64,000 nucleotides of DNA, taken from contig NZ_QLNP01000063.1 in NCBI RefSeq assembly GCF_003261175.1, positions 124,001 to 188,000 on the forward strand. Direction: 5' to 3'. Numbering within the stretch: the first letter of the stretch is position 1; every line of letters begins with the position of its first letter. Source of the stretch: Arthrobacter globiformis. Lineage in GTDB: Bacteria > Actinomycetota > Actinomycetes > Actinomycetales > Micrococcaceae. Positions 34,405 through 49,024 of this stretch are shown piece by piece. The notes under the pieces are model-generated. The model had not been told where the DNA came from. It made no database searches and saw only the letters and a list, made by a program, of their open reading frames with translations. The translations under genes were made by a program, and so were the position numbers.

Positions 34405-34731
34405 ATGAGCAACGCAAAAGACGTAACAGACGCAAGTTTCAGCAGTGACGTACTCGCCGCCGACAAGCCGGTAATCGTTGACTTCTGGGCCGAATGGTGC
34501 GGTCCGTGCCGGAAGCTGGGTCCCATCCTTGATGAGATCTCCGTTGAGTATGGCGAGAAGGTCAATGTCGTCAAGGTGAACGTTGATGACAACCCTGCCA
34601 TCGCCGCCGAGTACGGCATCACCTCCATTCCTGCCGTGTACCTGTTCCAGGGCGGCGAAGTGAAGAGCACTGTCATCGGTGCCAAGCCGAAGCAGTTCTT
34701 CGAAAAGGAGTTCGCGGACGTCCTGTCCTAA
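34405..34731 (+). CDS. trxA: Thioredoxin
   Basis: The 108-residue protein is a standard thioredoxin, with the active site WCGPC at 31-35, the buried Asp at 26 (VDFWAEWCGP) and the cis-Pro in SIPAVYLF. It donates electrons to cytosolic disulfide substrates and is recharged by TrxB. A GAGAGA-type site lies before the ATG, and a strong terminator follows at 34789-34827. Confidence 0.98.
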   Translation: MSNAKDVTDASFSSDVLAADKPVIVDFWAEWCGPCRKLGPILDEISVEYGEKVNVVKVNVDDNPAIAAEYGITSIPAVYLFQGGEVKSTVIGAKPKQFFEKEFADVLS

Positions 34732-34788
34732 GGCCAGACGCCGGACGGGGAACCTGATCGGGAACGCTGGTCAGGGTTCCGCCCAAAG

Positions 34789-34827
34789 GGTGGCCATTAC
34801 TCCAAGGGGAGTGGTGGCCACCTTTTT
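34789..34827 (+). terminator. Intrinsic terminator of trxB-trxA
   Basis: GGTGGCCA (34789-34796) pairs with TGGCCACC (34815-34822), and an inner stem ACTCC (34799-34803) pairs with GGAGT (34808-34812) around an AAGG loop. TTTTT follows immediately. The gap of almost 6 kb without genes begins here. Confidence 0.93.
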
Positions 34828-35264
34828 GTTCCTCAGGTATTTCTCGGTGACGAAGTAACCATGGGCCCCGCTCCTTCTGTAAGGCATCTTGGGCAAGGTG
34901 CCCAAGGCCACTGCACGGCCGGGCAAGCTCCGGGTACAGTCGACTCGCCAGTCACCGGAGGCCACCGCCACCCTCTGGCCCATCATTCGCCGCGTCTAGG
35001 GTCCTCCATTGCGCCAGCGCCTTCCGCTGCGGGCTGTCAGGCGACGGAAGGAAACCTTTCGCGGTCTCGTTCACAGCAGTTCCTCGCCGAGAATCCCTCA
35101 GACATCCGCGTTCGCGCTTCATGCTTCCTGCGCACCCACCGCCGCCAACCGCGGCTTATCGCGCCGCGCTCGATCCGGATTCGGGGGACTCGACGAAGGC
35201 ACACTACCCGCCCCAGTGCGAACTGCCAGGCTCCTGCCTGGGACACGCCGCCCCAGAGGACGAT

Positions 35265-35278
35265 GTTTCACGTGAAAC
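35265..35278. promoter_or_regulatory. parS site 1
   Basis: Perfect GTTTCACGTGAAAC palindrome, the core of the bacterial parS consensus bound by ParB. It is the site farthest from parB. Confidence 0.93.
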
Positions 35279-35757
35279 CAGCCGCACCTCCGGGCCCCCT
35301 GAGGCGGGTGCCACACCACGTCCACAAGAGCACAGGATGAACATTACAGTCTGCGCTGTCGACACTCTCGTTGCTCAAACTGGCGAAATCCGCTGTTCAG
35401 CAGGGCAGCATGGACGAGCACTAGCGCACGGGGAAATGCCAGGTACGCGTCACTGTCTAAGCCACCCGGGCGGATTGAATAGACCGTGACAGGGGTTGTC
35501 ATTGCACAAGCGCTGGGAAGACAACTGTGTCTGCCCCCGCCGCCCGCTGGGGGTACGACATCAGTGCGTACAGAAGTACCCAGTAGTTACCCTGTGAGCT
35601 CTCGAATCACTCTCCAGTTGAGCGATACCACGCGGTGGCCCTTGGGCCGCGTTCGCTGGACGAGCACTACGCTCGAGCGTCATCTAGAGCCGCAACCGCA
35701 TGCGCGCCGAGGCATCCCACGAGCGTCCTCAGTAAGGGGATGCCACGCAGTGCACTT

Positions 35758-35771
35758 GTTTCACGTGAAAC
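35758..35771. promoter_or_regulatory. parS site 2
   Basis: Perfect 14-bp core, here extended to the full 16-bp consensus with T at 35757 and A at 35772. Confidence 0.95.
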
Positions 35772-36709
35772 ATGAACCGTAAGCCGGGCGGGATTTCGTG
35801 TTCGAGTCCTTGGAAGTTCTAGGTTTACAGCCCCCCAAAGGTGAGGGTGCGCGCTAGGCTGCCTCCTTATGACCGTGTCGACGGCAAAACCAGCGAGAAG
35901 AGCTGAGCTTTCCCCGCTTTCGCGGTCGGGGCGGCGCTCAAACGAACCAAAGCCGAACACTGCTCACCACCGTCTCGGCCATGTCGCCCCCTGTGCCCGT
36001 CCAATGAGGAATGCCGACGTCGCCCCTCACTCACCAAAACGGGAACCCCACCAACAACGTCCAGCACCCTAAGCGCCTCGACCACCACAATCGCAGCATG
36101 CAGGCCATGCCCAACGTAGGCCATTGCGCACGCCGCAATGCAGCCGTTGGGCCGCATGACAACTGTATAAGGCAGATCGCGCCGAGCAGAACGCACCCAG
36201 GCAAAGGGCTAAGACGAAACTCACCCCAACTGGACGCGATAAGTGTCCGGGTACGGCCCGACCTCTCAGCTCACACGGGCACGTAATACTTCCCTTCTAG
36301 GAACGCCGGCGCGACCCGCTTCCTACTCCACCACGGGGCAACACTGAGGGTGCGCCGCAAAAAAGCAGGCGCCAGCGTCCGTCCGGACCGACCATCATAG
36401 TGCGGTCACCAGCCTCCTTGCTAACACTTAACGCCGAGTGCGGAATGGGCGTTAGTTGAAATGTCGACTCGGTACCATCATGCGCACTTCTCATCGTGCC
36501 GCCACTGTAGTCGCCCAGCACCGGTACCAAGAAACCACCGGGCATGTCCTCAGGAGCTTCCGGTCTCGGGAGCATCCGGAGCGCTCCTAGCATGGCGGCC
36601 AGATGCACGGGGCCGGGCCACTCCATTGGGCTATGATGCAGTGCCCGTCTGTCCCGCGACTAAGAGTCCGATTTCGCGCTGCTCGTGGCCACGAGTTATC
36701 GTCCGGCCA

Positions 36710-36723
36710 GTTTCACGTGAAAC
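36710..36723. promoter_or_regulatory. parS site 3
   Basis: Perfect 14-bp core; its start is only 56 bp from that of the next site, the closest pair in the field. Confidence 0.93.
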
Positions 36724-36765
36724 GTGACCTACACCACGATGGTGCACCCGCACGCCAGGAACAGT

Positions 36766-36779
36766 GTTTCACGTGAAAC
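36766..36779. promoter_or_regulatory. parS site 4
   Basis: Perfect 14-bp core with the full 16-bp consensus (TGTTTCACGTGAAACA). Confidence 0.95.
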
Positions 36780-37053
36780 AAGGCAGGCAAACTCCGGCGG
36801 AAGCGTAGCTACCAGCCGACCTCTTCCCAACATTGGGGGCCCCTCTCCACCCGGCGTCGGGTAACCACTCGAACAACCTAAGCGAGGGGCTATGCAGGTA
36901 TCGGCCACGTTTCTGGCTCTAAAATTGCGCGCAGGCCGCCGCTGCTTATCTGGGACCAGCGGGCATGCACGGATGCCGCCGGATGATGCCCCTTGACCTG
37001 CGCGTCGGCTCAGCTGTTGATAGGGACCTGCTGATGTCCCGGTGGGTTGCAAG

Positions 37054-37067
37054 GTTTCACGTGAAAC
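37054..37067. promoter_or_regulatory. parS site 5
   Basis: Perfect 14-bp core flanked by G and C rather than T and A. Confidence 0.92.
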
Positions 37068-38274
37068 CACGCGTGGAGTGCTGGTGGCCTTCGATCTGTA
37101 GCATCACCACAATCGCGGTGGGATCCGCGCCACGTGCCTCCGCTGACTCCACGACCATGCCTGGCCCTTCCCGCCCCTGTCTTACGAGACGCGGCACCGA
37201 GTCCACTAGGGGGAGCGCGATGGAATTCGAATTGAGACTTCGGCGGATTTCGACTTGGCTGCCCTGCTCTAGGTCTCAGGTATGGGAAGCCACATGCGTG
37301 CGTGCCCAGCCTTCCTTTATGCACGGAAGCGAGAGCAGCAAGATCACCCCATCGTTAAGCTCTAGGGACCACAGGGCGGGGTCGTCACCGCCGTCTCATT
37401 TAGGCTCCTCAGCGTCCGGTGCAGACCTCACCGTTAGAGGAGCCGAACCGCGCCCATAGCCACGATAGCTTCCGCGCGGCTTCCGGTAGGGGGATGAGTG
37501 CAGCGCGTGCCTCCGGCCCCCGGCTGGCGCGACGGCTGGCGAACCGGAAGGCAATCAAGTGTGAACGAGCGAAGGCTAGCCCGTGGCCAGCTCGCAACTC
37601 CCTTCTTTGTGGTGCCGTTCATACTGGCTGCAGCGCACGGGCAGTGCCGCCAGCGGCTACCGCACACGCCCGAAGACCACGCAGGACGTCAGAATAGAGC
37701 TCCATCACTGCGCCGCCCATGCTCCCGGTGTTTCGACTACAGCCCAGAGAGGACTCACTGGGGTCCTATGGGACCTGCAATCTTTCGTGAGATTCGCACC
37801 GCACTCCAGGGACCGTTGCATTTGGATCGGGATCCTGCGCGCAGAACTGTTCGAACGGGCTCTGCACTGTAGGACGCAGGACGAAGAAGGTAAGACGACA
37901 TAGGTTCATGGGCTCGACCACCGTGCTGCGGGGCATGCGTTTCTGCTGCTTGATGAGGAGCTCAACGATCATGAGGGCCGAGACATTTTTAACCACCTCG
38001 ATCGGCCGATGACCCAATCACCAGGGACCCCCTGGGCCCCGGCACCCCCTGCTGTACTGCCCCTTGGCACCAGCGAATGCCTGGGGCGGAATCGACGTTA
38101 CTAGACTGGCCCCTCGCTGGTCAGACCAGCGCCGAAGAGGGCGACAGCGGACAGTACAAATCCTTCGTTGCAGCTGCTCCGCAACCGCAACACAGGTCCC
38201 TTCGATGACAATGAAATGAGCCACGAGCGTGAATCGTGGCTGACGGGCGCCATGTACTAGGTCTCACCATGACA

Positions 38275-38319
38275 TTATTCACAGTGTTATCCACAGGCGA
38301 ATCCACAGGCTTATCCACA
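38275..38319 (+). repeat. Array of four DnaA-box-like 9-mers at exact 12-bp spacing
   Basis: TTATTCACA (38275), TTATCCACA (38287), GAATCCACA (38299) and TTATCCACA (38311) have the same orientation and 3-bp gaps. Two match the DnaA box perfectly, one has one mismatch and one has two. No gene is nearby. The array is about 8.6 kb left of the DnaA boxes next to dnaA, so this looks like a second DnaA-binding locus. Confidence 0.85.
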
Positions 38320-38556
38320 ACGCATGGCGGAAGGCAACGGCACATTCGCTCAGTCGGTGAAGAGCCTCACAGCGCGCGCTATTCAAGGGACGTCACGTCA
38401 CCGGCCGAGTGTCGCGGTTTTCGGATAGTCGGTCGGCAAGCACGGGGACCGGCTCGGGCAGTGAAACGCGGTGTAGGTAACCATATTGATTCGGTGAACT
38501 GCTCGTGGAGCACATGGAGGAGAATCGAAACCAGGTGTGCGGGAAACCAGTCTTCA

Positions 38557-38570
38557 GTTTCACGTGAAAC
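38557..38570. promoter_or_regulatory. parS site 6, between the DnaA-box arrays
   Basis: Perfect 14-bp core that lies between the two DnaA-box arrays (38275-38319 and 38655-38711). Confidence 0.93.
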
Positions 38571-38654
38571 AACAAGTGAGCGCCTAGCGTCTTCGGGTGT
38601 CACGCGGGCCAGGACAACTCCTCTAGGCGGCTCCTGGGGGAAAGCGGGAGCACG

Positions 38655-38711
38655 ATATCCACCCCGATACCCACAAGGTTATCCACATGCTTATCCACCG
38701 GCTTATCACCT
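38655..38711 (+). repeat. Array of five DnaA-box-like 9-mers at exact 12-bp spacing
   Basis: ATATCCACC (38655), ATACCCACA (38667), TTATCCACA (38679), TTATCCACC (38691) and TTATCACCT (38703) repeat with a 12-bp period in one orientation. The central copy is a perfect DnaA box, its right neighbour has one mismatch and the outer ones have two or three. The decay from centre to edge suggests cooperative filling from the strong site. Confidence 0.8.
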
Positions 38712-39222
38712 AGCTTCCGGGGCGGAAACTTGTGTAGGAGCCTGTGTCACCTGTCGGTCAGAACTGGTCGGTCCGGTGCCAGAGCTCGTCCGGCGACAGC
38801 CTCCGCCTCAGCGCAACCCGCTGGCATCGTCGTGCTCGATGCAGACCGATCCTGCGGTCTCAGCTCGCGGCACATCCCACCCATCGGTCGGGGCTCGCCT
38901 TTACAGAAGCCACGAATAGGTCCTCGCGGCGCAGGCCCATTCAGAGACTGGGAAATCCAGTCGATGGGTGAGTGGTATGCACGGGCACATTCGCAGCAAC
39001 ATCTGTCAGCCACTCGCGGCATGTGCTAAACGCCGTTGCGATCCGTCATGGTCTCCTTTCGTCAGAGCCTTACGGTTGTTGGGCGTCGCAACTTCTGTCT
39101 GTCGCCGGGCACGGACCTTCGGCGGGAATGGCTGCATAAATCCCAAACTTTGGGCGAGTCACCCAGTGAAGGCGATGGGCGCCGGCGCGACTGCTGATCA
39201 GTCGAACGGCGCATGCCGGAAC

Positions 39223-39236
39223 GTTTCACGTGAATC
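39223..39236. promoter_or_regulatory. parS-like site 7, one mismatch
   Basis: GTTTCACGTGAATC differs from the consensus at one position (A to T) in the right arm. It lies in register with the other sites in the gene-free region and may be a weaker or decaying site. Confidence 0.65.
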
Positions 39237-39795
39237 GCATGCTGGCCCGCGCTTCACGCCGAGCTGCGGAGGAGGGAGAAGAGGATCATTTGCGTTTCCG
39301 CAGCGGCTGGCAGGGGAGGTCAGTGAACGCGCGATGTGGGGACCAAGGAATGCCGTACCGTTCGCCGCCGCATGCGCGAGCGTCCAGGATCTGCGTACCC
39401 CCGGACCACCAAGCGGGCCCAGGGTAGGACCAGTTGTAGGCCGGGGGACACGCATCCCAGGGGCTACGATTGAGGGGCCGGGAGGATCACAGAACTGCTG
39501 TACACCGTCCTCCTTCTAGGTCTAGGTTCTCGCCGTGGCTCCTCTGTTCCCCGAATACTGACCATGGTTCCGCCTGCCCTCAGTTGGGCCTTCGAGCTGA
39601 CGCGCTTTGCAGCAAGCGCTGAGGCGCCCGGCCGTTGGCTTTCCAGTCGGCCGTAGGACCCATGCGCGGCTGCCGAGCCACTCTCACTATGGCACATCGA
39701 AAATCGAAGGGGCCAGCCCGGCTAGAAGTGGCCCGACACTGCAGAACTCGTACACCCCTCGTTGGCTGTCAGGCGGGCGGCCAACTGGTTGCCGC

Positions 39796-39809
39796 GTTTC
39801 ACGTGAAAC
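39796..39809. promoter_or_regulatory. parS site 8
   Basis: Perfect 14-bp core, about 1 kb downstream of the parB terminator in genome terms. Confidence 0.93.
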
Positions 39810-40172
39810 AGCGCCGGACAAGGGTCCGCTTCGTCGGAGCGCCACCAACCCCGTTGGCACGCCAACCTACACCTTTGGCGGCCCTTGAGTTACGCCGCTA
39901 GAGGTCAACTCTCGTCCATCTCTGTGGCGACGAAATCTGCTAGCAATGCAGCGAGTTGATCGATCATTTGAGTGCAAGTAGGACGCTGATCCTTTTGCGG
40001 CATTCAGCCAAATCGCCCTAGTTCCGACGGGCGGACTGCAAAAAGTGCAGTCCAAGGGACTGTACTGGTGTATCTATCGGGCCGGATGTTTGGAGAAGAG
40101 GGGACACAAAGGCCATCGCGGAAATGCACCTCGAGCAGAAGCTCAGCCGTCTATTGGACCACGTGCGTGTAC

Positions 40173-40186
40173 GTTTCACGTGAAAC
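40173..40186. promoter_or_regulatory. parS site 9
   Basis: Perfect 14-bp core, about 600 bp from the parB terminator. Confidence 0.93.
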
Positions 40187-40786
40187 AGCGCAACAGACGC
40201 GGCGGCGGCACTAGTGCTGATGTCGCGCGGCCGAACCGAGGCCGACTGCCTGGCGCTTTCACATCACCAAGGACACGCAGGGCACACGCTAAGAGCTAGC
40301 AGCACCGTAGAAGGCAGAATGGCTGCAGAAGCGACTAGGCGGCCCTGAAAGCAGCCAAGGACGTCTCTCTGGCCCCTAACGCCGCGCTCTCGCGTCCGCA
40401 GTGCACCATCCTCCGCCAGGGACCGAAGACAAGCAACTGTGGTTCCGGCAAATTGTTAGGAATGCGGCACCGAGCGTGATGGTGGCAGACAGTTGCGGTC
40501 GGCCGAATTCCCAATGGCGCAGGAAAGTCTCGGGCCGCAGCCACATGAAAAGGACGACGGCCGCTCTGTTGCGTCCAACCCCTGAGCCAGGTTTCGTCCC
40601 CACCGACATGGGTGCTGGTTGTCCGCAAGGCAACCGTGGAATCCGCAACCCACGAGCCGTCAGCCAGTTGCTGAAGCTCAATTCATCTTGACTGTACGAC
40701 CAAGACAGGTGCCGCACAGCCCAACCTTGGTCCCACGGCAATAGCGTCTGTAGAAGCAGCGAAGGAAAAAGACCTCAAGGTACAGA

Positions 40787-40818
40787 AAAGGGCCCGTTCA
40801 CCTGAACGGGCCCTTTTC
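40787..40818. terminator. Intrinsic terminator of the parA-parB operon (bidirectional)
   Basis: Perfect 15-bp arms, AAAAGGGCCCGTTCA and its complement, with two central bases. The A-run and T-run on the two sides make it work in both directions. It lies 13 bp after the parB stop and closes the right edge of the gene-free region. Confidence 0.93.
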
Positions 40819-40830
40819 GATAGAGGTTCT

Positions 40831-42171
40831 TTAGTTTTCCGCGCCTGGCGCGAGAACGTCCATGATGCGGTTCAGATCTTCAACGCTAGCGAATTCGATA
40901 CTCACGCGCCCCTTTCGCGCTCCGAGCGAGATCTTCACGTTGGTGTCGAGCCTGTCCGAGAGCGAGGAGGCCAGATAATCCAGCCGCTCGTGACGTGCGC
41001 CTGGGCGCGGAATATTGTTCTTCGCCGGCGTCGCGGGTTCACGGTGCAGGGTGACCGCTTCTTCGGTGGCTCGGACCGACATGCCCTCAGCCACAATCTT
41101 CTGCGCCAGGCGTTCCATGGAGGCAGCGTCGGGAAGCGAGAGGAGAGCCCTGGCATGGCCGGCGGACAGCACATTGGCCGCAACACGACGCTGCACCAGC
41201 GGCGGGAGCTTCAACAGCCGCAGAGTGTTGGACACCTGCGGGCGTGAACGGCCGATACGGTCAGCCAACTGCTCGTGCGTTGTTCCGAAGTCCTCCAGCA
41301 GCTGCTGGTAGGCGGCCGCCTCTTCCAGCGGATTAAGCTGGCTGCGGTGCAGGTTCTCCAGAAGTGCGTCGCGGAGCAGGTCGTCATCCGTCGTGTCCCG
41401 GACAATCGCGGGGATCGTGGAGAGTCCAGCGGCTTGGACTGCCCGCCACCGACGTTCACCCATGACAAGTTCATACGGTTCTCCACCCTTTTCGGTTGAA
41501 GTCCGCACCACAATTGGCTGGAGGACGCCTATTTCACGAACGGAGTGAACGAGCTCCGCCATGTCGTCCTCATCGAAGACAGAACGGGGCTGTTTACGGT
41601 TTGGGTGGATGTCGGTGACAGGAATCTCGGCAAAACGGACGCCCGGTACCTCGACGAGATCGACGCCGTTGTCCGAGACAGCAGCCGAGTCTACGTTCTC
41701 CCCGGCAGCGGCGGCCCGGGCAGAAGCGGCAAGCTTCTCATCCGCCGACGGCGTGCCAGGGCGGACGGCTTCAGACTTCCCAGCATCCTTGTCGGCCTTG
41801 GTCGCCCCGGCCTTTGCAGAAACCGCGCCGGCCTCCGAGTCACCGCTCCTGGAAGCGGCGGTCTTCGCCGCGGACTTGGCAGGGGAGGGCTTCGCCGCAT
41901 CCGAAGTACTCTCGGTGCCTGCATCCGTACCCGCTGCATCCGTACCCGCCTCGGCCAAAGCCTTCAGACCGGAGCGGCGTGCAGGCGTTTCGTCGAGATC
42001 TGGCGTATCCGGCTCAACGGCCGGGGCGGGTTCAGCCGTCTTGCGCGCCTCGGGGAAGAACAGATCCACGGGGCGCGACGGAGCTGCTCCGTTACCCGAA
42101 GCGCTTGCGGACGCGGAACTTGGAATGAGTGCGCCAAGACCGCGACCGAGCCCGCGTCGCTTATCGCTCAT
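40831..42171 (-). CDS. parB: Chromosome partitioning protein ParB
   Basis: The 446-residue protein has the N-terminal ParA-contact motif ([11 protein letters not shown]). A 150-residue Ala/Ser/Lys/Glu-rich low-complexity linker (about 20-170) follows, then the ParB/Srx CTPase domain with GERRWRA at 238-244 and [10 protein letters not shown] at 272-281. The helix-turn-helix follows (about 298-325) and a C-terminal dimerisation domain ends [14 protein letters not shown]. It binds parS and spreads as a CTP clamp. M. tuberculosis ParB is about 100 residues shorter; the extra length is in the linker. It follows parA in the same operon. Confidence 0.97.
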
Positions 42172-42238: not shown

Positions 42239-43291
42239 CTAACGCTCAGCGATTTCCGCTGCGGCTTCCAGATAGGACAACGCGCCGCTGGAGGATGGAT
42301 CGTAGGTCATGACCGTCTGCTGGTAGCTCGGCGCTTCGGAGATTCGCACGGAGCGCGGCACGACGGCGCCGAGGACCTGATCCGGGAAGTGCTGGCGGAC
42401 TTCAGCTGCGACCTGAGCGGCCAGGTTGGTCCGCCCGTCGTACATGGTCAGCAGAATGGTGGAAACCTCCAGATCTGCATTCAGGTGCTTCTGGATCATC
42501 TCTATGTTCTTCAGCAGCTGGCTCAGTCCCTCGAGTGCATAGTATTCGCACTGGATGGGGATGAGCACCTCGCCGGCCGCACAGAAGGCATTGACCGTCA
42601 GCAGGCCCAGGCTGGGCGGGCAATCGATGAAGATGTAGTCGAGCCGCTGCTCGCCCTTCTTCTGCCGTGCCTTGGCATAGACGTCGATGGCTCGGCGGAG
42701 GCGCTGCTCGCGTGCCACCAGGGAGACGAGCTCGATCTCGGCGCCGGCCAAGTGGATAGTGGCCGGAGCGCAGATGAGGTTGCTGATGTCCGGGCACTGT
42801 GCAACGACGTCTTCGAGAGGCAGATCGTTGATCAGGACATCGTAGATGCTGTCGACGTCGGCATGGTGCTCAATGCCCAGTGCCGTGGACGCGTTGCCCT
42901 GCGGGTCGATGTCGATGACCAGGACGTTCAAGCCAGCAGCCGCCAGCGCCGCAGCGATGTTGACGGTGGTGGTGGTCTTTCCCACTCCACCCTTTTGATT
43001 TGAAACCGTGAAGATGCGCGTCTTCTCCGGCTTGGGCAGGTTGCGCCCGAGGAGCCGTTCCCGCCTTCTGTTCTCGTGCGCCAGTTCCCGCGCGATGGGG
43101 CTCGAGTCATCGAGGGTATCCAGGACGTTGCCCCGCGCCGCGGTTTCACGTGAAACCTTGGGGGCACTCGTGGCTGCAACCGGACTGGGCTGATTTAGCG
43201 TCGTAGCGACCGGTGATACGCCAAAGGCACGCGCCGACCCCAGAGACACGAACGGGGGGATCCGCTGCGTGGAGGTTTCGCTACTGGTCAC
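42239..43291 (-). CDS. parA: Chromosome partitioning ATPase ParA
   Basis: The 350-residue protein has a 90-residue N-terminal extension before the deviant Walker A KGGVGKT (100-106). Switch regions follow ([30 protein letters not shown]), then the C-terminal DNA-binding stretch. It drives origin segregation with ParB. Residues 46-50 (VSRET) are the translation of a perfect parS site at 43143-43156, so the extension carries a ParB-binding site in its DNA. The start at 43291 is open upstream of the conserved region and cannot be settled without RNA data. Confidence 0.95.
43143..43156. promoter_or_regulatory. parS site 10, within parA
   Basis: A perfect 14-bp core lies inside the parA coding sequence, where the minus strand reads Val-Ser-Arg-Glu-Thr. 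It is the site nearest to the canonical oriC. Confidence 0.93.
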
Positions 43292-46592: not shown

Positions 46593-47064
46593 GTTAGTTA
46601 CTCCAGTGGATCAAAGGTGCGCCCACCCGATCAGTAAAGGGGAAGAACTGGCCGACGCTAAGTTTTGTATGTGTCTGCTTCCCCTGGATTTTCCCGGAAC
46701 ACATAAGCGTCCGAGAGTCCAAAATGGGGTCAGAAAGCAGGCACAAAGGACTCCACAACGTTAGGGCAAAACGCCGCCGGGAGTCAAACCGGCAGGCCAT
46801 TCCGCGTGTTTCCCCAGCTGTGGCTAACGGTGCGGCGAACCTGTGGACGAAGCGGCTACCGATCGCCGTTTTAGAACCACAACGGTGTAATTATCCACAA
46901 GGCACTTCCCAGCTATCTTCTAGGCTTTTCATCCCCTAGAGTGTCCCAGTAGCCGATTATCCACGGACTGTGCATAACCCTGTGGATTAAGCCGGGCCAG
47001 CACCCTGGTTTCGGGCTTGCGGCTGCATGTAATGCAGACAGCAAGCTTTGAGGAACCAAATTTG
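46593..47064. other. oriC, left part: rpmH-dnaA intergenic region with DnaA boxes
   Basis: The 472-bp gap between the divergent rpmH and dnaA genes holds one perfect DnaA box (TTATCCACA, 46891-46899). It also holds a phased trio at 12-bp intervals: TTATCCACG (46957), reverse TTATGCACA (46969-46977) and reverse TAATCCACA (46981-46989). A weaker reverse box is at 46819-46827. Promoters of both genes must lie here. Nothing codes. Confidence 0.85.
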
Positions 47065-48486: not shown

Positions 48487-49024
48487 TCCCAGGTTCTTAA
48501 CCTTATTAACAGGGGGGTGTGGATAACCCTGTGGACAGTTAAGGGGACAACCGCCGTTAATGGGCTTAAAACCCTTAAGGTGTCTGTGGATCACCGCAAC
48601 AGGCCAAAAAGGTTGTCCCCATCCACACCCTGTTTAAAACGTGCCGAACCCACAGTCCATGAACAGGGCTTAACCGCGGATCCCGGCCGTGAAACCGGGT
48701 TATCCACAGTTTCCACAGCAGTTATTAACACTACTAATCCCAAAAAATTGAAATCCCTCAAATAACAATCTCGTTCCCGGACCTCCACCGCACCAGCCCA
48801 AGCATCGGCCACCGCGCCCCGGCAGAGCCGGCATCACCGGCGGGGATGGGGAAATCCTCGGAGTTCCGGCTAAGCTGTCTGCAGCGCTCCCATCCCTGGG
48901 TTTGTTTGCGGTCGCCCATGCGCGGACCATGCAGGTTCCGGGACTTCGGGGGCACCGGTCTTATGGGCTCCTTGCGAGTTCCCGTTCAGAAAATGGCAGC
49001 AGCAATGAAAGGCGGCACCCTTCC
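48487..49024. other. oriC, right part: dnaA-dnaN intergenic region with DnaA boxes and AT-rich candidate DUE
   Basis: The 538-bp gap has a perfect reverse box (48518-48526) and a weak partner exactly 12 bp on (48530-48538). There is also a near-perfect reverse box (48585-48593) and a perfect forward box (48700-48708), with a weak one at 48709-48717. An AT-rich run follows at about 48720-48772 (GTTATTAACAC, AAAAAATTG), a candidate DNA-unwinding element. The region also has ccttattaac and ttaaaaccctt stretches. No gene is present. Confidence 0.88.

Follow-up and report, generated by a model that had tools for sequence, protein, structure and literature searches.

Paired DnaA-box arrays with a 12-bp period in the parS region of Arthrobacter: a probable DnaA-binding control element within the centromere of the chromosome

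The window, i.e. the whole stretch of 64,000 nucleotides of Arthrobacter globiformis that we analysed (contig NZ_QLNP01000063.1, positions 124,001 to 188,000), contains dnaA with the canonical oriC, the partition genes parA and parB and, between parB and a thioredoxin gene, a gene-free gap. This gap holds eight exact parS sites together with one copy that deviates by one mismatch, and it is the platform of two arrays of DnaA boxes. The features, in their order along the window, are:

34405-34731, thioredoxin gene (trxA), after which the gap starts
34732-40830, gene-free trxA-parB gap of 6.1 kb, the parS-bearing platform that holds the element
35265-35278, exact parS
35758, 36710, 36766, 37054, 39796 and 40173, starts of further exact parS sites in the gap
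38275-38319, plus strand, left DnaA-box array, TTATTCACA, TTATCCACA, GAATCCACA and TTATCCACA at 12-bp steps (starts 38275, 38287, 38299, 38311)
38432-38542, zone in which the comparison set, not the window itself, shows phased A-tracts with a 10.5-bp AA/TT period
38557-38570, exact parS (GTTTCACGTGAAAC) in the stretch that separates the arrays; its start precedes that of the strong right box at 38679 by 122 bp
38655-38699, plus strand, right DnaA-box array, ATATCCACC, ATACCCACA, TTATCCACA and TTATCCACC at 12-bp steps (starts 38655, 38667, 38679, 38691)
38703-38711, plus strand, decayed fifth unit of the right array
39223, start of the parS copy with one mismatch
40831-42171, minus strand, parB (ParB)
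42239-43291, minus strand, parA (ParA/Soj), which contains an exact parS at 43143
46819-46989, canonical oriC, part upstream of dnaA, with boxes at 46819 (minus), 46891 (plus), 46957 (plus), 46969 (minus) and 46981 (minus)
48503-48730, canonical oriC, dnaA-dnaN part, AT-rich and conserved in relatives, listed as a contrast

The observation of two phased DnaA-box arrays is real. Both consist of four boxes on the plus strand at an exact 12-bp step, all with at most two mismatches to TTATCCACA, and three of them (38287, 38311 and 38679) are perfect, just as claimed beforehand. The original prediction had counted nine units, four on the left and five on the right, of which eight hold; the ninth, at 38703 (TTATCACCT), has three mismatches, and similar decayed units are found in L050, L051 and L052. 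The parS that had been placed between the arrays is indeed exact. In total the window has 17 boxes with at most one mismatch, compared to 3.8 +/- 2.0 in 100 shuffles. The 12-bp period also stands out against simulated sequence: with up to two mismatches allowed, the window has two runs of four boxes, while in 300 first-order Markov sequences of 64 kb the longest run is one box (289 sequences) or two (11 sequences), and never three. Among periods of 9 to 20 bp, runs longer than two occur in the window at 12 bp only. The genome as a whole has 36 perfect boxes, 3 inside the arrays and 33 elsewhere, and a two-box pattern with at most two mismatches finds two more isolated pairs beyond the arrays and oriC. 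We regard the 9-mers of the two arrays as predicted DnaA sites because they are identical to boxes at oriC.

Recurrent box pairs were also seen elsewhere, for example at G000:C31:188080, 17 kb past the dnaA start, and in other genomes. Pairs such as TTATCCACAGGGTATTCCAC lie about 16 kb to the right of the dnaA pairs in G482, G465 and G479, and pairs of the form TTATCCACAGCAATATTCAC about 70 kb to their left in several species; these two kinds are perhaps DnaA-regulated promoters.

The surroundings of the arrays had been described as free of genes, and this agrees with our searches: nine of the twelve listed gap ORFs of at least 100 aa were scanned, and none has a Pfam match. Rfam gives nothing at gathering score between 28000 and 50000 of the window, and the middle of the gap does not align by blastn except around the arrays. 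A hidden gene or structured RNA in the gap was rejected on these grounds.

For the comparison among relatives, loci were fetched by ParB with flanks of up to 10 kb, and the best 80 of 231 confirmed loci were kept; their records carry the names Arthrobacter, Pseudarthrobacter or Paenarthrobacter, apart from one Micrococcaceae MAG. The whole trxB-parB interval (4.4-9.5 kb, trxA included) is present in 72 of them, and these form, together with the window, the comparison set of 73 loci. The other eight (L057, L071, L098, L079, L081, L092, L097 and L109) do not have the interval and were excluded; in the last five the stored DNA stops within about 1.1 kb of parB. Both arrays are found in the same orientation in 72 of the 73 loci. 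The 73rd, L124, has the left array and a weak right one, which lies 122 bp after its parS, and was excluded from the 72 left-right pairs, as was L066 from the A-tract and density counts. When a 33-bp right-array profile trained on these same 73 loci is run over the whole gap, it scores highest on the array in every one of them, the place in L124 itself coming from this whole-gap scan. The loci are related by descent, and the counts are consequently not independent.

Outside the comparison set, both arrays are present in L057 and L071. These two are distinct parB loci from one metagenome bin (RL56_bin.044), which likely mixes two species. The arrays seemed to be lost in L098, where two frames downstream of parB have no Pfam match, but elsewhere in its genome there are two clusters separated by 377 bp, at a distance of about 18-19 kb from the oriC pairs. 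In the genus of the window, 12-bp pairs occur in all 61 genomes searched. Among the matches listed, the 17 fully shown genomes of this genus have two clusters each, about 330-410 bp apart, and where one stretch spans both, the clusters lie 8-11 kb from the dnaA pairs, with one exception at 18-19 kb, which is by its coordinates the genome of L098.

The DNA between these conserved sites changes fast. With blastn at word size 7, the bordering genes align in up to 80 of the 80 loci on the parB side and in 72 on the trx side, whereas from about 35.3 to 40.4 kb nothing aligns except near the arrays, and there in at most 11 of 80 loci per 200-bp bin; the wider presence of the arrays therefore rests on the box scans. 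At a four-fold site divergence of 0.12-0.13, 93-98% of the filler is aligned, at 78-84% identity. Between the window and its three nearest relatives (divergence 0.18-0.21) only 3-8% of the filler is covered, i.e. 92-97% is unaligned, and other pairs near 0.18-0.19 reach a coverage of 23-44%. Such low alignment at these divergences means that the filler drifts fast and is well suited for footprinting. Two alignments of four genomes each, from the end of trxA to the end of parB, show the parS sites and both arrays as conserved islands, along with one short further island in one of the two sets and a hairpin-like stretch directly after trxA. Had the surroundings aligned in close relatives with the arrays missing, this would have spoken against the original prediction; the relatives show the opposite, with arrays kept while the neighbouring sequence diverges.

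The enriched 8-mers in the 73 gaps are fragments of parS and of DnaA boxes. Boxes with at most one mismatch reach 11.7 per kb in the element (taken nominally as 470 bp, in 70 loci) versus 0.089 per kb in the remaining 371 kb of gaps. When parS and boxes are masked, words of the CGGGGGAG type come out on top (z 11; 69 occurrences versus 19.6 expected, in 49 loci). In the window and the 72 other loci, the parS positions stay similar across the fast-drifting gaps, and in 32 of the 73 loci a parS lies at most 110 bp from the end of the parB match. The L093 and L103 groups have a long perfect inverted repeat just past parB with a parS at its centre, as if this site might double as a terminator.

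Runs of at least two boxes in the 73 gaps number 165 at 12 bp, 12 at 11 bp and 25 at 13 bp, and 0-2 at each of 9, 10, 14, 15 and 16 bp. A chain of 12-bp steps through the anchor box comprises 2-5 boxes on the left and 2-6 on the right, and a minus-strand box (at most one mismatch) occurs within the element in only 5 of 72 loci. The inner gap between the arrays measures 265-355 bp in 71 loci and 1773 bp in L066, under a pairing rule that admits gaps of 150-420 bp only and from which L066 is exempt; anchored by profiles, the left-right distance falls within 321-404 bp for 72 of the 73 loci, the left array having been searched for at about 200-480 bp only, again with L066 exempt. In L066 the arrays are 1851 bp apart and a parS is still found 119 bp from the right array. 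The insert of about 1.5 kb between its arrays contains frames that resemble an insertion sequence by eye, and is likely to be one.

In 63 of the 73 loci a parS starts 109-135 bp ahead of the strong right box; the other ten have a parS only 76-100 bp after this box, and L118, one of the 63, has both. A parS in either range, both of which were chosen after viewing the data, is thus found in all 73 loci, compared to 7.8% at random places of the same gaps. The spacings fall into groups of 109-111 bp (6 loci), 116-123 bp (44) and 126-135 bp (13), which resemble steps of one helical turn. Helical phasing of parS relative to the right array was considered and rejected: a period of 12.0 bp gives a resultant of 0.68, above the 0.59 obtained for 10.5 bp, so that gain or loss of 12-bp units explains the groups equally well. 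Judged by mean size, the change in spacing per bp is 3-5 times lower in the element than in the flanks. A measure derived from unchanged pairs is not lower in the element, the flank figure being only a floor as no flank pair is unchanged. Both measures use disjoint pairs (22 parS-right, 22 left-parS, 26 left-right, 18 and 20 in the flanks), with flanks differing by more than 25% and left-right distances differing by more than 500 bp excluded. A spacing constraint inside the element is suggested by these figures.

Midway between the arrays, the comparison set has on average a zone of phased A-tracts. AT content rises in the stretch that separates the left array from the parS (61 loci), and AA/TT dinucleotides recur at lags of 10-11 and 20-21 bp with values of 0.23-0.25 versus 0.08-0.10 in the control, the spectrum having its maximum at 10.5 bp (2.83 versus 1.23). 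The best 60-bp stretch has a mean power of 7.3 compared to 4.9 in 1036 other segments, and is located at 0.45 (sd 0.10) of the distance from left to right array. This is a property of the average, as only 34 of 72 loci have a signal stronger than that of all the other segments in their gap. In the window the power is 4.1, the fourth weakest of 72, with a peak at 0.69, and the zone is not significant there.

Beyond this group, we sampled a further 80 loci, of which 78 have parB (L163 and L188, which have no parB match, were dropped). Two array clusters in the interval are found in all five loci of genus g7 and in all four of g19, but neither in any of 50 loci that represent 28 other genera of the family nor in any of 19 loci from 16 other families. 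Many intervals of these 69 array-free loci are shorter than 1 kb, where absence says little, and the eight in which trxB was not found were searched to the end of the fetched DNA (as little as 1.8 kb, in L198). Useful negative controls are the 17 loci whose trxB-parB interval was measured, spans 4 kb or more and holds four or more parS; in ten whole genomes from seven such long-gap genera, no 12-bp pair lies within the interval among the matches listed. The placement of parS differs in the two genera that have the arrays. Two g7 loci have a parS whose start precedes the left array by 108-109 bp, and the other three of the five have none within about 280 bp, their nearest being about 300-520 bp away; the g19 loci have a parS that begins 105-116 bp past the left-array start. 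A near parS is therefore lineage-dependent (g7, g19 and ten of the 73 loci), and a direct contact between ParB and DnaA would not be obligatory. L148 and L169, two of these nine loci, have an A-tract signal above every control of their gap, and in the other seven it is at best equal. In the g19 loci L148, L169 and L194 we also noted an extra inverted box pair, 15 bp apart, near the parS between the arrays.

GC skew of the filler is -0.050 to the left of the arrays, -0.022 between them and -0.040 to the right, i.e. of constant sign (72 loci), and positive in only 5 of 72 loci on the left and 10 of 72 on the right; a switch of skew at the arrays is absent, in keeping with a locus that holds no bidirectional origin. 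The best 30-bp AT content between the arrays is 0.64 on average (maximum 0.73), versus 0.75 (minimum 0.70) in the 420 bp after dnaA. Neither the four-genome footprints nor the 72-locus set has conserved columns beside the boxes, unlike the dnaA-dnaN region, which is conserved. An AT-rich unwinding element adjoining the arrays was accordingly not found, the mean AT content being below that of oriC, with overlap, and the flanks being unconserved.

In our best reading, the element is comparable to datA in layout and to rctA/parS2 in logic. The minimal datA region comprises a single IHF site together with four boxes, of which three are essential, according to excerpts of PMC10950094. Both are non-coding clusters of strong and weak boxes outside oriC; the DNA between the boxes is bent at datA through the one IHF site (same excerpts), and may be bent in the element through A-tracts that are phased on average. 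In contrast to datA, for which these excerpts describe no parS, the Arthrobacter element consists of two same-strand arrays of predicted sites at 12-bp steps within the centromere. On chromosome 2 of V. cholerae, initiator sites next to the origin likewise have an embedded centromere, with cross-talk between ParB and the initiator: ParB2 counteracts the inhibition that results from titration of RctB at rctA/parS2 (portions of PMC6399470 and PMC4468827). However, RctB has its own motifs and acts on a secondary chromosome, whereas in Arthrobacter DnaA boxes and eight exact parS are located on the main chromosome. The combination of predicted initiator sites and parS at one locus near the origin is nevertheless the layout of an initiator-binding centromere. 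In Caulobacter crescentus, DnaA sites occur in the centromere of the chromosome, no more than about 8 kb from the origin (PMC4468827, in part), and DnaA-ATP starts partitioning at parS (PMC6399470 and PMC4468827, in part); the difference is that in Arthrobacter the predicted sites form two phased arrays of several boxes each, inside a long gap free of genes. Clusters of DnaA boxes outside oriC in Streptomyces and B. subtilis are thought to repress untimely initiation (PMC10950094, in excerpt). Dense DnaA boxes outside oriC are what they share with the element. We know of no paired 12-bp arrays within a parS cluster of Streptomyces or B. subtilis.

Taken together, the locus is probably a composite control element that binds DnaA and forms part of the chromosomal centromere, and not an origin. 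The connection of a DnaA locus with the ParB centromere in the original prediction agrees with arrays that are kept in a parS-bearing gap while their surroundings diverge; its other suggestion, an auxiliary origin, is disfavoured by skew, mean AT content and flanks. We favour an element that would hold DnaA, with an occupancy coupled to ParB, over its main rivals, a pure sink and a pure licence for segregation. As to the filament nucleation that the original prediction also named, a strong box flanked by weaker ones at 12 bp suits the layout that cooperative loading of ATP-DnaA would use, since in E. coli weak boxes are filled by ATP-DnaA only, starting from anchor boxes (PMC6399470, in part).

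A possible mechanism can be outlined as follows. DnaA, chiefly ATP-DnaA, would load cooperatively on each array, starting at the strong box, and the bent or protein-bent middle would join the two DnaA oligomers, as IHF does at datA. Being about 8 kb from oriC, the locus would double just after initiation, so that the complex could hold or inactivate DnaA near the new origins; such titration or inactivation by the arrays is plausible. ParB from the flanking parS would slide over the same DNA, and either compete with DnaA or be stopped by it. The occupancy by DnaA and the state of the centromere could thereby each respond to the other, in the manner of RctB and ParB2 at rctA/parS2 or of DnaA at the Caulobacter parS. 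In its full form, which we put forward tentatively, this would be an initiator switch embedded in the centromere of the main chromosome, in which two DnaA oligomers are folded over a bent middle and wired via a near-set parS to ParB, so that assembly of the partition complex and availability of DnaA control each other.

The likelihoods we attach to the alternatives overlap with that of this explanation, which includes parts of them. On the one hand, the arrays might act as a licence of the Caulobacter type, by which centromere-bound DnaA would set off the transport of ParB-parS by ParA and hardly affect initiation. This is possible, if doubtful: wherever the arrays are present they lie inside the parS-bearing gap, and DnaA-ATP that starts partitioning at parS is a precedent (Mera 2014, as presented in parts of PMC6399470 and PMC4468827), but other genera have long parS-bearing gaps without arrays, so segregation does not need them, and the paired layout is closer to datA than to a single DnaA site. 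On the other hand, the element could be a plain sink, whose boxes soak up DnaA against untimely initiation and for which the parS area is just a convenient gene-free site. Its position near oriC, and hence early doubling, would suit a sink, as would the about 5.5 boxes (at most one mismatch) per element compared to 9.0 beside dnaA (70 loci) and the fine placement of parS, which differs between lineages. Yet a sink needs neither a 12-bp phase nor a pair of arrays at limited distance, neither an A-tract zone at the midpoint nor a near-fixed parS spacing, and 33 of the 36 perfect boxes of the genome lie outside the arrays, which makes this explanation rather unlikely. Still less probable is a roadblock or boundary, at which DnaA oligomers halt sliding ParB clamps or help to load or position SMC: the parS located 109-135 bp ahead of the strong right box (63 of 73 loci) could be read in this way, but parS sites are present on both sides of both arrays, so that no domain is closed off, and the near parS is often missing in g7. 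An auxiliary or second origin is highly improbable, as the constant sign of the skew on both sides and the unconserved neighbours of the boxes argue against it, together with the lower mean AT content, even though the arrays flank a somewhat AT-richer stretch and in a few elements the AT content is as high as in the oriC with the lowest value (0.73 versus 0.70).

Our search of the open-licence PMC literature, in part judged by title, found no account of Arthrobacter DnaA boxes tied to parS. How bacteria couple the initiation of replication to segregation is an open question, for which few cis-acting sites are known. Here a discrete element of about 450 bp stands out from drifting DNA and could be removed without touching any gene, and its presence in three sampled genera and absence from others with equally long parS-bearing gaps provide a natural comparison of chromosomes with and without it. 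The question of coupling thereby becomes directly testable in these harmless soil bacteria. Conserved arrays inside the centromere suggest a built-in link between the copying of the chromosome and its movement, and, if this is true, the combination of a datA-like and an rctA-like device would represent a new class of replication-segregation coupler.
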